Below are positions 1,241-7,050 of a DNA stretch of 7,083 nucleotides, piece after piece. Where the stretch lies: the NCBI GenBank assembly GCA_027063755.1, contig JAMORD010000097.1:1-7083 (forward strand), in the 5' to 3' direction. The stretch comes from a bacterium (lineage in GTDB: Bacteria > Coprothermobacterota > Coprothermobacteria > Coprothermobacterales > JAADFF01). The notes under the pieces are model-generated. The model ran no database searches. It was given only the letters and a program-made list of their open reading frames with translations, and was not told the origin of the DNA. The first letter of the stretch is position 1. Each line of letters starts with the position of its first letter. The position numbers and the translations under genes were made by a program.

Positions 1241-1251
1241 GAGGGGTGAGG
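1241..1251 (+). promoter_or_regulatory. Ribosome binding site of rpoC
   Basis: The purine run GAGGGGTGAGG contains GGTGAGG, which ends six bases before the ATG at 1258. This spacing suits Shine-Dalgarno pairing and favours ATG 1258 as the start. The in-frame GTG at 1246 lies inside this run and would have its own GAGGG directly abutting it, so it is the poorer choice. The rpoB stop is only a few bases upstream, so translation of rpoC may be helped by ribosomes finishing rpoB. Confidence 0.65.
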
Positions 1252-1257
1252 ACGCCT

Positions 1258-4200
1258 ATGGACAGGATAAAGAAGAAAAGGGTTCGTAAATTTGATGCCC
1301 TAAAGATAAGACTGGCATCTCCCGATGATATTCTCAAATGGTCTCATGGTGAGGTTACACAAGCTGAGACTATTAACTATAGAACATACTTGCCTGAAGA
1401 GGGCGGTCTATTTTCACAGCGCATCTTTGGTCCTATAAAGGACTATGAGTGTGCTTGTGGAAAGTATAAAGGTAAGAAGTATGAAAATGTTGTATGTGAA
1501 AACTGTGGTGTTAAGGTGACAACATCTAAAGTACGTAGAGAGTGGATGGGACACATCACTCTCAATGCACCTGTAGCCCATAGGTGGTATTATGGTAAGT
1601 CTCCTTATCCACTACCAAGGCTTTTGGGCCTAAAGTATCCTGAGGTAAAAGATATTGTGTATTTGAATCTTAACCTCGTTGCCGATGACGGTGGTCCATT
1701 TGTTCCTGCCGGTGTTGTTGTAGACGGCGAAGGCGAAATGAAGGTAAAAAATTGGTTCCTAAATTTCAGTCGTGAGCTTGAAGAAATAAAGGGATCTTCT
1801 CGTATACCTGCCAATATTCCAAGGGTCAAGAAAGAGCTAAAAGAAAAGGTTGTTATCAAGGGAGAACCACGCTTTGTGGCTGGTCCTAAGGCTATTGAGG
1901 CCATTTTTTCCATGCTTTATGAAGAAAACTATCCTGTAAAGCTGTATGTTGACTTGTCTCAGGTATGGAAGGCTCGTAAGCGTCTGAGAGAGAAGGTAGA
2001 AAACTTCCTTATGTCTTTCCTTGGCATCACGAAAAAAGATATCAGGGCCATTCTTGATGGTGAAAAGAAGATATTCTTTGGCGAAGATGTAATAAAAGTT
2101 ATAGACAAACAGAAATATCTTTTGCTGACAACCGATGAGCAGAATAAGGCCTTTGACGGTTATAAAGCCTTTGTCGCTGCGCTCTTGAAAGATTATCTTG
2201 ATGGGGGTAGCAAACTTCAGGAATTTGCCGAGATTGTTGCTCGTATACCTAATAGATATGGTAGATGGGAAAGACTGACAAATAGAGGACAGGATGTAGG
2301 ACTGTCTACGGAAAGATGGTATCCCAATGAAGAGTCTCTTGGTTCTCTTAATATGCTTGGTGTTTTTCTACCTAAGTTGCTTATTGTTATAGATTCCAAA
2401 GAGCGTAAAGCATATAAATGGGGTGAAAAGGAATATATAGAGGCTTATCTGGGTGATTACGAGGGACGTTATGAATACTTTGTCAGTCCGGAAGATGCTG
2501 AAAGATATCTTACCAATATTTCTAAAGGACTGGATGAAAATGAGGTAGCTACAATAGACCTTACTGATGAAGAAGGAGCTATTCTTTTTGAACAACCTCG
2601 TATTCAGGTATCCGATATTAGGGTTAATATCACAGGTCTTGATGTGCTAACCGATGATGTGGCAAAGAATATAAAAAGAATCATGGGGCCAGAATTCAAG
2701 TTTGGAATGGGGGCCGAGATAGTACAACAGGTACTTGAGAAAGATTTTGACAATCAGGGAAATCAGCTTCAGCTGTGGGTTGAGTATTTAAAACATCTTG
2801 AGAGGGTTGTTACAAGTGAATCTCAGCGTAGAAATATTGTTAGAAGACTTAGTGTTATGGAGGCATTTTTGCATTCTGAGTCTCGTCCCGTATGGATGAT
2901 TCTTACTGTTATACCTGTTATCCCACCAGAGCTAAGACCTATTATTCCTCTTGAAGGTGGTAGATTTGCCACTTCTGAACTTAATGACCTCTATAGACGT
3001 GTTATCAATAGAAACAACCGTCTGAAGAAGATGATGGATAAAAGGGCACCGGAGATTATCTTGAAGAATGAGAAGAGATTGCTGCAAGATGCTGTAGATG
3101 CCCTTCTTGATAATAGTGGTAAAGAGAAACCTGTTACAGACTCTTCTGGTAGACCACTGAAGTCTCTTACAGATATTCTTGTTAAGAAAGAAGGACGTTT
3201 TAGAAAGAATCTGCTTGGTAAGCGTGTTGACTATTCCGGTCGTAGTGTTATTGTTATCGGTCCTGAACTAGAGCTTGACCAGTGTGGTCTTCCTAAAGAG
3301 ATGGCCGTTGAGCTGTTTAAACCGTTCCTTATTAATAGACTTATCAAGAGAGGTATTGCTGAGACGTTTAAGGAAGCTCGTGAACTAATAGACCGCAGAG
3401 ACGATAGTATATTTGATGCTCTTGAAGAGGTTGTGAAGGATCACTATGTACTTCTTAACCGTGCTCCAACACTTCATAGACCATCTATTGAGGCCTTTAG
3501 ACCAGTTCTTGTTGATATGAAAGCTATATCTATTCCAGCTATGGTCTGTCCACCTTTTAATGCCGACTTTGACGGTGACCAAATGGCTGTTCATGTACCG
3601 CTGAGTGATCAAGCCCAAGCAGAGGCACGACTGATAATGGCATCTTCTCTAAACTTTATCTCACCGGCCAATGGAACGCCTCTGGCCGCACCTTCTCAAG
3701 ATATGGTGCTTGGTATTTACTATCTAACTATGCCATTTGAGGGAGTTAAAGGTGAGGGTAGCGTTATTTCCTCAATAGACGAGGCTTTTATCAGATATCG
3801 TCTTGGTAAGGCAGATCTCCATGCTTGGGTATGGTATCCACTCATTGCTTCTAAAGAAGAGATTGAGAAGATGAAGGCTGAAGGAAAGAAAGGTAATACT
3901 ACTATTGGTCGTATTATCTTTAACTACGAGATAGGCAAACGGATGAAACAGTATGGTCTTACCAGGTATCTAGGTAGAGGATTTGAGATATTTAAAGAAG
4001 AAGCAGATAAAAAATACCAAGGTCCAAGATTGGACTTTGTCAATAAGACATTGGATAAGAAGAAACTGAAGAAACTTATCACCGAAATGGTAGACATTAT
4101 TGGTATTGCAGATATGAAGTATTTCCTTGATGTGATAAAGGATATTGGTTTCCATTATGCAACTGTTTCAGGTTCTACCATATCTTTGCAGGAAGTACAG

Positions 4201-7050
4201 GTTATGCCCGGCAAAGATGAAATACTAAATAGGGCTTTGGAACAAGTTGAGCGTATCAACGAGGCATATGAAGACGGTATCATCAGCTATGAGGAGAGAA
4301 TTCCATCTATTATTGAGGTGTGGCGTAAAGCATCTGAAGAGATTGAAGCAAATCTTCGCAAGTTAATGTCAGAAAGTTCACCAGATAAACTGAATTCCCT
4401 ATATATCATGATTATTTCTGGTGCAAGAGGTAATGTTGACCAGTTGAGACAGTCTGTGGCATTTAGAGGTGCTGTCTATGATGCTACAGGTAATATTCTG
4501 GAAATTCCTGTAAAATCCTCTTATATAGAAGGTTTGACTGTTCGTGAATACTTTGATTCCACATACGGTGGTAGAAAAGGTCAGGTTGATACTGCTCTGT
4601 CTACATCTCTTGGTGGTTATAACACCAGAAGATTTGAAGAAGCTGTTCACGCCATTGTTGTTAGGGAAGACGACCACGAAATCAAAGATGTTGACCTAAA
4701 TATATATCAGGGTAGGGATTTGGCCCATGAAATCATGGGAAGACTTGCTGCTGAGGATATTGTTGATAGTCAGACAGGTGAAGTTATTGTAAAGAAGTTT
4801 GAGCTTATTGATGAGGATAAATTCGTGCAGATACAGAATAGAGCAGCCGGCAAGGTTAAGGTGTTTACAGAACTGATGTGGGTTGATGTGGATTCCTTCC
4901 TTGATGAAGAGAATTTCCTAGAAAATCTTATACACAATAGATTTAAACTTGCAATGGATATTGTGCTTAAGAATGGAGATTCTATACCTGCTGGCACTGT
5001 TATTACACCAGTACTTGTGCATAAGCTGAAGAAGATACTTTACGAAAACGGTTATGAGCCCAAAGTTCTTGTCAGAAGAATAGACGGTATTATGTTTAGA
5101 ACACTCAAGAATCTTGAGGGTGATAATATTAAAGACTTCTTTGCACGAATTAAGGGTAGATTTCTGGCCGATGATGTGGTCTCTCCTAAAACTGGTGAGG
5201 TGCTTGCGCAGTCTGGTCAGTTTATTGACAAGGGGCTTATTGATAAGTTTAAAGAGCATGGCGTAGACCATGTATATATTAAGAGTGCATTGACATGTAA
5301 GACGGAATACGGTGTATGTGTGAAGTGTTATGGTGAAGACATGGCCAGACACGCTATTGTTGAACGCGGTGAAGCTGTTGGTATTGTTGCTGCACAGTCA
5401 CTTGGTGAGCCTGCTACACAGCTGACACTGAGGACATTCCACACTGGTGGTACCGTTGGTGCTAAGAGTGAGGAGATTACATCTGAAGATTCCGGTTTGC
5501 GTCTGGTTGAGGCTGTCTCTACAACACCTGATTCTGGTCTTAACAAAGATGAGCGTAGATTTCTCCAGAGTATTGTCAAGCCTATTACGGATTTCTACAA
5601 AGTGCTTCGCAACATAGACGAGCGTATTAGGGCTGAGTTTGACAGTGCTAAGGAAGATATCCTCGTCAAGGAGATTAGCAACCTCAAAGAAATGACGCGA
5701 GAGGAAGAGAAAGCCCTTCGTGTATATGTTAATGACTTCCTTGACGGTTATATGAATGGAATTCTATCTATAATGGAGACTATACAGACTCTTATTAATA
5801 ACGAATTTAACTGGAGAGGCCTTAGTGTAGATGTTTACGAGTACATATTTGAGCAAATAGATAGTCTTGACAGGGTATTTGCACCTGCGGTGCTTGAAAA
5901 TCTAAGAAAGGATATAGATGACATTGTATCTAACGACGAAATTACTTCAAGGCTGTCAAGGAAGATAGAGTCTTATCTTGCGTCTATATCTGCTAAATTT
6001 GTTGAGTATCTTGCTAAACTACCAGCATGGTTCCTTATGACGGCAGGTATTAAGGGTAGAAATGCCGAAGAGGTTAAGGCTCTATACGATAGAATCATTG
6101 GCATGGGTGTAAAGGAAATTACTGATGATACCCGTAAGGAGCTTGTTGGGCTTATAAAGGGCTTATTTGAGGGTGATGATATTTCTGTAAAGGAATTCGT
6201 CTATGAACAGTTTGTAGGGCTTGATCCAACGATGGAAATAATTGACCAGAAGAAGGCAAAACTTCAACCACTGGCTCTTCTGTCGTCTGTTGATGGACAT
6301 GTTATAGAAGTTGAGGTTAAAGATAAGATGATGTATGTTGTAACAAAAGATGAATTTGGCTCTTATAAGCTTGCTTTCGCTTGGGTGTCTTTTAGATATC
6401 TTGATCCTGTTTTAGGAAGAGAAGTTGAGATTAGATTCAGGCCAAGGTTTAAAGAGGGAGATTATATCTTACCTGGTGACCTTATGGTTGTCAGTAGGCA
6501 AAGAGGTTTTCATAGACCTGTTGTCAGATATCCAAGGGTTTTCTTGCAGATGCTACTTGATAACTTTGGTTTGCAGGCAGTTGCCGACTTTCTGTTCTCC
6601 TCTATTGAGGGTATCTATGTTGATTTCCAATTTGATATTAACGACAAGCATTTTGAGGTGATCATGTCTCAGATGCTTAGTAAAGTTGAGGTTTACGATG
6701 ATGGAGACAGTGATATTCTCGTTCCATTTCACAATATTGACCTGTATAAGTTTGAGGCTGAATATAGATATCTCAAGACCAAAGGTTTGCTTACTCCAAG
6801 AGGTAAGCGTAAGATTTGGGGTACAAAAGATGTTGGTAAGCTTTCTGAGTCGTGGCTTGCTGCCGCATCTTACTTAGAGACGGCCACAGCTCTTATCAAT
6901 GCTGCTATAGCATCTAAGGTTGACAGACTTGTGGGTATGAAGGAGAATGTTATTGTTGGTTCTATGATTCCAGCCGGTACTGGTATTTATGATGATAACC
7001 AGTTCAAAATAAGGGTAGAGGGTAAAGAGGAGATTATTGAAGAAGAATAA
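1258..7050 (+). CDS. rpoC: RNA polymerase beta' subunit, expanded form (about 1930 aa)
   Basis: This is the beta' subunit, which carries the catalytic magnesium site of RNA polymerase and forms the clamp, bridge helix and trigger loop. Landmarks in order: zinc ribbon cysteines 65, 67, 80, 83; clamp coiled coil with NDLYRRVINRNNRLKK (about 573-612); NLLGKRVDYSGRSVI; NRAPTLHR; NADFDGDQM with aspartates 770, 772, 774; rim helices (about 982-1036); F-loop SGARGN; bridge helix (about 1087-1125); second zinc site H1140, C1347, C1354, C1357; trigger-loop helix with R1392 and H1395; NDKHFEVIMSQML; and KENVIVGSMIPAGTG near the C-terminus. The protein is far longer than E. coli (1407) or Bacillus (about 1200) forms because of three expansions, listed separately. 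ATG 1258 is chosen over GTG 1246 for its better-spaced ribosome-binding site; the longer form would add four residues. The gene lies 19 bp after rpoB and ends in TAA. All catalytic residues are present, so it is judged functional. Confidence 0.97.
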   Translation: MDRIKKKRVRKFDALKIRLASPDDILKWSHGEVTQAETINYRTYLPEEGGLFSQRIFGPIKDYECACGKYKGKKYENVVCENCGVKVTTSKVRREWMGHITLNAPVAHRWYYGKSPYPLPRLLGLKYPEVKDIVYLNLNLVADDGGPFVPAGVVVDGEGEMKVKNWFLNFSRELEEIKGSSRIPANIPRVKKELKEKVVIKGEPRFVAGPKAIEAIFSMLYEENYPVKLYVDLSQVWKARKRLREKVENFLMSFLGITKKDIRAILDGEKKIFFGEDVIKVIDKQKYLLLTTDEQNKAFDGYKAFVAALLKDYLDGGSKLQEFAEIVARIPNRYGRWERLTNRGQDVGLSTERWYPNEESLGSLNMLGVFLPKLLIVIDSKERKAYKWGEKEYIEAYLGDYEGRYEYFVSPEDAERYLTNISKGLDENEVATIDLTDEEGAILFEQPRIQVSDIRVNITGLDVLTDDVAKNIKRIMGPEFKFGMGAEIVQQVLEKDFDNQGNQLQLWVEYLKHLERVVTSESQRRNIVRRLSVMEAFLHSESRPVWMILTVIPVIPPELRPIIPLEGGRFATSELNDLYRRVINRNNRLKKMMDKRAPEIILKNEKRLLQDAVDALLDNSGKEKPVTDSSGRPLKSLTDILVKKEGRFRKNLLGKRVDYSGRSVIVIGPELELDQCGLPKEMAVELFKPFLINRLIKRGIAETFKEARELIDRRDDSIFDALEEVVKDHYVLLNRAPTLHRPSIEAFRPVLVDMKAISIPAMVCPPFNADFDGDQMAVHVPLSDQAQAEARLIMASSLNFISPANGTPLAAPSQDMVLGIYYLTMPFEGVKGEGSVISSIDEAFIRYRLGKADLHAWVWYPLIASKEEIEKMKAEGKKGNTTIGRIIFNYEIGKRMKQYGLTRYLGRGFEIFKEEADKKYQGPRLDFVNKTLDKKKLKKLITEMVDIIGIADMKYFLDVIKDIGFHYATVSGSTISLQEVQVMPGKDEILNRALEQVERINEAYEDGIISYEERIPSIIEVWRKASEEIEANLRKLMSESSPDKLNSLYIMIISGARGNVDQLRQSVAFRGAVYDATGNILEIPVKSSYIEGLTVREYFDSTYGGRKGQVDTALSTSLGGYNTRRFEEAVHAIVVREDDHEIKDVDLNIYQGRDLAHEIMGRLAAEDIVDSQTGEVIVKKFELIDEDKFVQIQNRAAGKVKVFTELMWVDVDSFLDEENFLENLIHNRFKLAMDIVLKNGDSIPAGTVITPVLVHKLKKILYENGYEPKVLVRRIDGIMFRTLKNLEGDNIKDFFARIKGRFLADDVVSPKTGEVLAQSGQFIDKGLIDKFKEHGVDHVYIKSALTCKTEYGVCVKCYGEDMARHAIVERGEAVGIVAAQSLGEPATQLTLRTFHTGGTVGAKSEEITSEDSGLRLVEAVSTTPDSGLNKDERRFLQSIVKPITDFYKVLRNIDERIRAEFDSAKEDILVKEISNLKEMTREEEKALRVYVNDFLDGYMNGILSIMETIQTLINNEFNWRGLSVDVYEYIFEQIDSLDRVFAPAVLENLRKDIDDIVSNDEITSRLSRKIESYLASISAKFVEYLAKLPAWFLMTAGIKGRNAEEVKALYDRIIGMGVKEITDDTRKELVGLIKGLFEGDDISVKEFVYEQFVGLDPTMEIIDQKKAKLQPLALLSSVDGHVIEVEVKDKMMYVVTKDEFGSYKLAFAWVSFRYLDPVLGREVEIRFRPRFKEGDYILPGDLMVVSRQRGFHRPVVRYPRVFLQMLLDNFGLQAVADFLFSSIEGIYVDFQFDINDKHFEVIMSQMLSKVEVYDDGDSDILVPFHNIDLYKFEAEYRYLKTKGLLTPRGKRKIWGTKDVGKLSESWLAAASYLETATALINAAIASKVDRLVGMKENVIVGSMIPAGTGIYDDNQFKIRVEGKEEIIEEE
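1450..1506 (+). other. RpoC N-terminal zinc ribbon
   Basis: The block CACGKYKG...VVCENCGVKV has the four cysteines (C65, C67, C80, C83) in the standard CxC...CxxC spacing of the beta' zinc ribbon in the clamp, near the RNA exit side. It is intact, in contrast to the altered second zinc site further on. Confidence 0.9.
1693..2694 (+). other. Large insertion in the RpoC N-terminal clamp region
   Basis: Between LLGLKYPEVKD (the usual LGLLLD block) and FKFGMGAE (usual FDAKMGAEAI) E. coli has about 55 residues; here there are about 360, so roughly 305 are extra. Thermus and Thermotoga also carry large insertions at this place, but I see no clear likeness to the Thermus one, which is rich in beta-barrel repeats. 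The segment mixes charged helices (KARKRLREKVENFLMSF; DAERYLTNISKGL) with aromatic-rich stretches (YKWGEKEYIEAYLGDY). It contains no cysteines and no intein or nuclease motif. The function is unknown. By position it should sit on the outside of the clamp. Confidence 0.75.
1864..2022 (+). repeat. Possible diverged copy of the MGAEAI clamp module (copy 1)
   Basis: The stretch RFVAGPKAIEAIFSML followed by VWKARKRLREKVENFL resembles the conserved RpoC block MGAEAIxxLL followed by a basic helix KxRKRLxVVxAF. The canonical copy lies at 2695-2877. The likeness is by eye, weak at several positions, and could reflect generic amphipathic helices. Confidence 0.3.
2695..2877 (+). repeat. Canonical MGAEAI clamp module (copy 2)
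   Basis: The stretch FKFGMGAEIVQQVLEKDF, then RRLSVMEAFLHSE, leads directly into the conserved PVWMILTVIPVIPPELRP block, so this is the family-standard copy. It is listed for comparison with the possible duplicate at 1864-2022. Confidence 0.55.
2965..3093 (+). other. Clamp coiled coil, sigma-binding (beta' clamp helices)
   Basis: FATSELNDLYRR, VINRNNRLKK and LKNEKRLLQDAV closely match the beta' clamp helices, the main docking site for sigma region 2. The arginines and the turn between the two helices are kept, so sigma binding is expected to be normal despite the expansion just before it. Confidence 0.85.
3559..3585 (+). other. RNA polymerase catalytic site NADFDGDQM
   Basis: The universal NADFDGDQM signature is exact. 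Aspartates D770, D772 and D774 hold the catalytic magnesium ion. E. coli has these at 460, 462 and 464, so the protein upstream of the active site is about 310 residues longer here, which agrees with the size estimated for the N-terminal insertion. Confidence 0.98.
4417..4476 (+). other. F-loop with divergent core
   Basis: SGARGN is standard, but what follows is QLRQSVAFRGAV where bacteria typically read QIRQLAGMRGLM. The usual methionine packing near the bridge helix and trigger loop is Phe (F1069), and Leu, Ala, Gly and the last Met are also changed. The Arg residues RQ and RG are kept. Confidence 0.75.
4516..4632 (+). other. Bridge helix with unusual substitutions
   Basis: The segment from SSYIEGLTVREYF to GGYNTRR matches the bridge helix, the element that spans the active-site cleft and moves with translocation. 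R1106, K1107, D1111, T1112 and T1116 are conserved. Against the E. coli sequence the following differ: H777 to Tyr, A779 to Gly, L783 to Gln, A784 to Val, K789 to Ser, A791 to Ser, N792 to Leu, S793 to Gly and L796 to Asn. Most bacteria read TA[ND]SGYLTRR here; this protein reads TSLGGYNTRR. Confidence 0.8.
4717..4875 (+). repeat. Zinc-domain module, copy A
   Basis: Residues 1154-1206. The core EIMGRLAAEDIVDSQTGEVI is followed by FELIDEDKF and VKVFTEL. It matches the standard RpoC pattern GRVxAEDVxxPxTGEVI, then xLIxxxxxxxxxxxGVxxVxVRS. Its upstream flank is the canonical one following the first zinc ligand. Confidence 0.7.
4924..5079 (+). repeat. Zinc-domain module, diverged middle copy
   Basis: Residues 1223-1274. 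LIHNRFKLAMDIVLKNGDSI, then GTVITPVLVHKLKKIL and EPKVLVRR, follows the same order as copies A and B: hydrophobic-basic start, DIV/DVV, a GD/GE turn, an I-T/I-D block, a helix, and a closing V-x-V strand. It is the most diverged of the three and has lost the GR and TGEV spellings. Confidence 0.45.
5134..5295 (+). repeat. Zinc-domain module, copy B
   Basis: Residues 1293-1346. RIKGRFLADDVVSPKTGEVL, then QFIDKGLIDKFKEHGVDHV and YIKSALT, leads straight into C1347. This is the position the module holds in ordinary RpoC, so copy A keeps the normal upstream flank and copy B the normal downstream flank. That is the pattern expected from tandem duplication inside the domain. Confidence 0.7.
5368..5451 (+). 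other. Trigger loop, N-terminal helix
   Basis: GEAVGIVAAQSLGEPATQ, then LTLRTFHTGG, matches the conserved trigger-loop entry. R1392 and H1395 correspond to E. coli R933 and H936, which contact the incoming NTP. Two near-universal spellings differ: GEPGTQ is GEPATQ, and LTMRTFH is LTLRTFH (E. coli M932 to Leu). Confidence 0.9.
5482..6216 (+). other. Large helical insertion in or just after the trigger loop
   Basis: From the trigger-loop histidine to the strand ending in SSVDG there are 285 residues, against about 37 in Thermus, so about 248 are extra. E. coli has its 188-residue SI3 within the same loop, but SI3 is built from beta-rich barrel motifs. This segment looks mostly alpha-helical, for example FYKVLRNIDERIRAEF, YMNGILSIMETIQTLI and LSRKIESYLASISAKFVEYL. 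It is acidic and has no cysteine. The boundaries given assume that GLDPTMEIIDQKKAK (from 6217) is the trigger loop's second helix. If instead SGLRLVEA (about 5491-5514) is that helix, the insertion lies just beyond the loop, before the jaw. Confidence 0.7.
6217..7050 (+). other. RpoC C-terminal jaw remainder, clamp anchor and switch region
   Basis: LALLSSVDGHVIEVEVKDK matches the strand after the trigger loop (usually AVISEIDGxV). FKEGDYILPGD matches the VxxGDxVxxGD turn, INDKHFEVIMSQML the DKHIEVIVRQM block, SWLAAASYLETATALINAAI the SFxSAASFQETTxVLTEAAI block, and VGMKENVIVGSMIPAGTG the terminal switch segment. The usual LGITKASL is altered to WGTKDVGKL. The protein ends with a short acidic tail, without the longer tail of E. 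coli. Confidence 0.85.

Follow-up and report, generated by a model that had tools for sequence, protein, structure and literature searches.

A predicted all-helical insert at the junction of trigger helix 2 and jaw in the RNA polymerase of Coprothermobacterales

The gene for the beta' subunit of RNA polymerase (RNAP), rpoC, encodes in one member of the order Coprothermobacterales, an uncultured relative of the thermophile Coprothermobacter, a long acidic segment near the trigger loop. The question is whether this segment is a helical counterpart of SI3, the insert of E. coli, or a domain of another kind at another place. The window analysed here is a stretch of 7,083 nucleotides (contig JAMORD010000097.1 of assembly GCA_027063755.1, forward strand) that carries the complete rpoC downstream of the 3' end of rpoB (3-1238). 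An earlier note, made from the sequence of the window, had placed about 248 extra residues at 5482-6216, in the position of SI3. About 240 extra residues are real and lie in an intact open frame, but their limits are better set at 5536-6258, since the interval first proposed begins at residue 1413, still within the trigger loop, and ends some 14 residues before the insert does. The site is also a different one. In the sister family of the order, represented by four relatives of Coprothermobacter (G002, G003, G004 and G006) with RpoC open frames of 2040-2043 aa, a homologous insert (BLASTP E 9e-8 against that of the window, 22% identity over 200 columns) directly follows a complete canonical trigger loop, including trigger helix 2 (TH2), and runs up to the start of the first jaw strand; we therefore place the insertion at the junction of TH2 and the jaw. 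This corresponds to E. coli residues ~1149-1152, about 12 residues past the hinge glycine G1136 (E. coli numbering; PMC7026648), whereas the SI3 site lies between FHxGGxA and DITGGLPRV (E. coli ~941-1132), with one trigger helix on either side (PMC10802570). The window genus, which comprises the window genome (G000) and a second metagenome-assembled genome (MAG; G001), has only about 6 extra residues where SI3 would be (17 from H to GL, against 11 in relatives). The misplacement probably arose because TH2 has decayed beyond recognition in this genus.

The insert contains 46 D/E against 35 K/R residues (isoelectric point 4.80, net charge -11), and an AlphaFold model built from two sequences predicted it to be all-helical, with confidence (pLDDT) of 82-89 in the core at residues ~1455-1504 and of 76-88 at ~1555-1584. 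The predicted arrangement is one of helical hairpins of the bundle type. Because the insert is 92% conserved in the second MAG of the genus and has a dN/dS of 0.025, close to the 0.021 of the whole rpoC (window versus G001; dS is near saturation and the ratios are rough), it is neither a chance reading nor an assembly error, and it is under purifying selection. A six-sequence alignment showed that the inserts of the two families, although only about 21% identical overall, have in common the motifs IVxPxxDF, [FY][ND]WxGL and GI[KR]G.

Comparisons with known domains gave no relative. The hhalign probability against an SI3 profile of seven species was 0.1%, and those against jaw, SI3 and BEAN profiles stayed at 0.1-0.2% (HABAS, 0.15%; BEAN, 0.19%), while in the positive control the two BEAN copies of the same RpoC were recognised at 95-99% (95% and 98.6%). 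On this comparison SI3 homology was rejected. Pfam and PDB sequence searches with the insert alone returned chance-level matches (best PDB E 0.069), and a match to HEPN_Cthe2314 (E 0.069), below the family cut-off, was rejected as one of helical composition. With the insert model, Foldseek found generic helical bundles only (best E 0.06), and the best VIA match (Z 10.3, root-mean-square deviation 4.6 over 149 residues) was within the helical-bundle background. Similar helical hairpins occur in generic four-helix bundles such as the McpS sensor domain (2yfa), de novo bundles and BAR domains (VIA Z <=10.3), a likeness at background level that implies no function. The acidic, mostly helical character and the unlikeness to the SI3 barrel, both proposed in the earlier note, are thus borne out, the latter by hhalign and by an all-helical model of moderate confidence. 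Its proposal of an independent solution at a known insertion hotspot holds as to an independent origin and a helical, non-SI3 domain, but not as to the SI3 site.

The distribution of the insert was surveyed in 386 genomes of 325 genera. A profile of the insert matched six members of the order and no RpoC outside it; a weak match in G184 (E 6.6e-4) fell in a 173-aa frame that is not RpoC, and was rejected. Two genomes of the same phylum (G007 and G008) lack the insert, and their RpoC measures 1251-1262 aa, compared with 1934-2043 aa in the order; the order member G005 (78% complete) gave no RpoC match at all. A profile running from TH2 to the jaw matched in 365 of the 386 genomes and in this order alone was interrupted, at its position 21, by a gap of about 209 aa. 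Re-examination of split, weak or partial cases showed that the other splits lay inside the jaw or came from repeated jaw-type copies, and the single matches, not all inspected row by row, had E values of ~1e-40 or better, which require a nearly unbroken profile. A scan of genome collections for the insert found only the MAG of the same genus. The insert is a lineage-specific bacterial RNAP insertion domain, clade-wide, vertically inherited and lodged in an intact rpoC. As to its novelty, the main text of a survey of such domains (PMC11515920) gives seven places in beta' at which domains are inserted, with HABAS, BEAN and sLC as their folds, the large bacterial inserts described being mainly HABAS barrels or BEAN domains. 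The uD5/bD6 junction and a helical fold are absent from that main text, and nothing relevant on Coprothermobacter rpoC inserts was found in the literature beyond it. Measured against that main text, the order-restricted insert adds a helical form to the known lineage-specific RNAP inserts, at a site that we did not find described.

Among polymerase domains, three described systems come closest. SI3 of E. coli and other Gram-negatives and Si3 of cyanobacteria are likewise large lineage-specific beta' inserts in the stretch from trigger loop to jaw; SI3, however, is placed between the trigger helices and made of SBHM/HABAS barrels, whereas the insert of Coprothermobacterales follows TH2, is predicted to be helical and has no profile similarity to it. 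The type-2 jaw (beta'-bD6) insert, for example that of Dehalococcoides (PMC11515920), is jaw-associated like the insert described here, but belongs to the latter half of the jaw barrel and is HABAS where present, while ours comes ahead of the first jaw strand and is predicted to be helical. The third is the Rpb1 jaw. It is also a lineage-specific domain after a trigger helix (beta'-aD4 in uD5; PMC11515920), and it replaces the bacterial jaw, whereas the insert adds to it; the PDB sequence search revealed no similarity between the two. In archaea and eukaryotes this Rpb1 jaw comes after the GVPRLKE trigger helix.

We favour, with moderate confidence, the explanation that the insert is an order-specific, vertically inherited all-alpha accessory domain of beta' in Coprothermobacterales, seated at the TH2/jaw junction and braced near the jaw. 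Since both of its ends would be attached beyond the moving loop and its hinges, beside the jaw, its most likely role is that of a brace that stays largely in place on the outer face, in the vicinity of the jaw, the secondary-channel rim and the downstream DNA. Such a brace would not swing with each nucleotide, unlike SI3, and would act on trigger-loop opening and on the grip of downstream DNA indirectly, via the base of TH2; an influence on pausing or fidelity is possible. The argument of the earlier note that a domain tethered here must move at every folding of the trigger loop loses its basis, because the site lies past the hinge, with the insert beyond hinge H2 and beside the jaw, and not at SI3. 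Several points weigh against the explanation that we favour. The two-sequence model is only moderate (mean pLDDT 59) and unreliable in its last third, and a 906-residue AlphaFold model that included the surroundings reached a pLDDT of only 32, so that a three-dimensional placement was not obtained. We infer the static role from position alone, and the insertion point in the window genus depends on homology with the sister family, because its own TH2 is unrecognisable.

Among the alternatives, it is possible, though rather unlikely, that the acidic bundle is a docking platform or gate, binding an order-specific transcription factor or partly covering the secondary-channel rim. The motifs kept across two families would fit such a function, and cyanobacterial Si3, which shields the rim (PMC10802570), offers a precedent. 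Against it, each of the eight phylum genomes examined still encodes GreA, a sign that cleavage factors can probably still reach the secondary channel, and we know of no partner of the insert; GreA retention speaks in particular against complete shielding of the channel as with cyanobacterial Si3. To our knowledge, cyanobacteria have no Gre. Somewhat more doubtful is a structural or near-neutral expansion, in which the insert would be one of several in an enlarged beta' and, with no specific regulatory task, would lend stability to the enzyme or to its assembly in thermophiles. The great length of RpoC in the order relative to that of its insert-less phylum relatives, and the co-occurrence of an N-terminal insert and a BEAN duplication, agree with this, but the low dN/dS and the conserved motifs suggest that at least a fold is being maintained. 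We consider improbable a mobile helical domain of the SI3 type, tethered in the trigger loop, moving with catalysis and controlling pausing and proofreading. The insert is close to the trigger loop in sequence, and the degenerate TH2 and hinge H2 of the window genus might permit a tighter coupling there; in the insert-bearing relatives, however, the insert comes after a trigger loop that is intact, and the site is past G1136, in contrast to that of SI3 itself. A highly diverged SI3/HABAS barrel or a duplicated jaw is very improbable: overlapping or repeated neighbouring jaw-profile matches do suggest jaw-type duplications elsewhere (G024, G067, G108, G171 and G310), yet the prediction is all-helical and the hhalign values for SI3 and jaw are as low as given above. 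Finally, an assembly artefact, frameshift or pseudogene is scarcely credible, for although the source is a fragmented 1.5-Mb MAG in 251 contigs, the same architecture recurs in the second MAG (L053) and in four sister-family genomes, and the whole gene has the low dN/dS already cited.

In the window genus, the catalytic module beside the insert is remodelled (Table 1). The F-loop and bridge helix have 13 of 37 near-invariant positions changed, compared with 23 of 248 elsewhere (Fisher p 1.1e-4); the other lineages tested showed 0 to 4 such changes, and the insert-bearing G002 none. GEPGTQ and GLP are the trigger-loop hinges H1 and H2 (PMC3533926). The altered H1, searched for as the coding pattern GEPATQ[LM]T, was present only in G000 and G001 among the 386 genomes, and the control pattern GEPGTQ[LM]T occurred once per genome in 36 of 41 control genomes. 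The GLP of H2 and the LFEAR that follows are lost, GLP plus RVEELFEAR having become at most GLRLVEAV, and the remnant of TH2 is best placed at residues 1409-1422, a placement that is not significant (344 of 2000 shuffles were equally good). Since the TH2 columns of the 22-sequence alignment are misaligned across the insert, trigger-loop counts past its N-terminal half were not used. Between the window and G001, the trigger-loop stretch of residues 1376-1430 has 13 synonymous changes and a dN of 0. In yeast RNA polymerase II (Pol II), alanine changes in H2 make the enzyme fast and moderately impair its fidelity, and substitutions of the H1 glycine that is replaced in the window genus (G1076 in Pol II) have only moderate effects in an archaeal RNAP (PMC3533926).

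Because the hinges are canonical in the insert-bearing relatives, the insert does not suffice to bring about these changes and probably predates them. The hinges, F-loop and bridge helix would then have been remodelled later, in this genus, leaving the insert-bearing relatives unaffected, and altered elongation, pausing or fidelity is predicted for the window genus. A bolder and doubtful extension is that the trigger loop is controlled by a helical domain that acts on its base from an insertion site not described before, and that this domain allowed or drove the replacement of near-universal hinge residues and of bridge-helix and F-loop residues in the window genus; if true, the genus would possess a naturally rewired nucleotide-addition cycle. 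SI3 is the best-studied insert coupled to the trigger loop, and a helical domain at the TH2/jaw junction would provide a natural test of whether the trigger-loop base and the jaw can tune catalysis without a domain that rides the loop. The genus-specific change of both hinges and of much of the bridge helix is likewise a natural experiment: in yeast Pol II hinge mutations alter both the rate and the fidelity of the enzyme (PMC3533926), whereas in this genus such changes are fixed under purifying selection.

Table 1. Features of rpoC in the window (positions of the window; residues of its RpoC unless stated).
Feature	Position	Strand	Remarks
rpoC, beta' subunit	1246-7050	+	1934 aa, one intact open frame, GTG start
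F-loop and bridge helix	4447-4650	+	residues 1068-1135, E. coli 738-805
Duplicated BEAN-type domain before second zinc site	4699-5289	+	copies ~4699-4875 and ~5125-5289
Trigger-loop hinge H1, GEPATQ replacing GEPGTQ	5404-5421	+	
Trigger helix 1, LTLRTFHTGGT	5422-5454	+	catalytic residues kept; profile match 61 bits
Trigger-loop tip (extended by ~6 residues compared with relatives) and degenerate TH2 (SEEITSEDSGLRLVEAVSTTPDS)	5455-5535	+	
Insert, acidic domain predicted all-helical	5536-6258	+	residues ~1431-1671, flanked by TH2 and the jaw
Divergent, somewhat enlarged jaw region	6259-6615	+	alignment; weak hhalign jaw match, 12% probability, E 0.0024

The gene, which is single-copy in the window genome, has other peculiarities. 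The first cysteine of the zinc site (E. coli C814) is a histidine in the window genus and in Coprothermobacter (EDDH), the other three cysteines being kept, and a further order-specific insert of about 300 aa lies in the N-terminal clamp region (window ~1693-2655) and is longer in Coprothermobacter. Elsewhere in the survey, overlapping or repeated jaw-profile matches in G024, G067, G108, G148, G171, G285, G310 and G374 suggest tandem copies of jaw-type (HABAS) domains after the trigger loop in several lineages. In an unrelated lineage (L050, genome G012), some 110 extra aa of RpoC do lie where SI3 would be (FHTGGVAG...SSGIVRVEEIFEARR); this insert is rich in charged residues and looks, by eye, helical and unlike SBHM, and it may be the real case of what the earlier note described.

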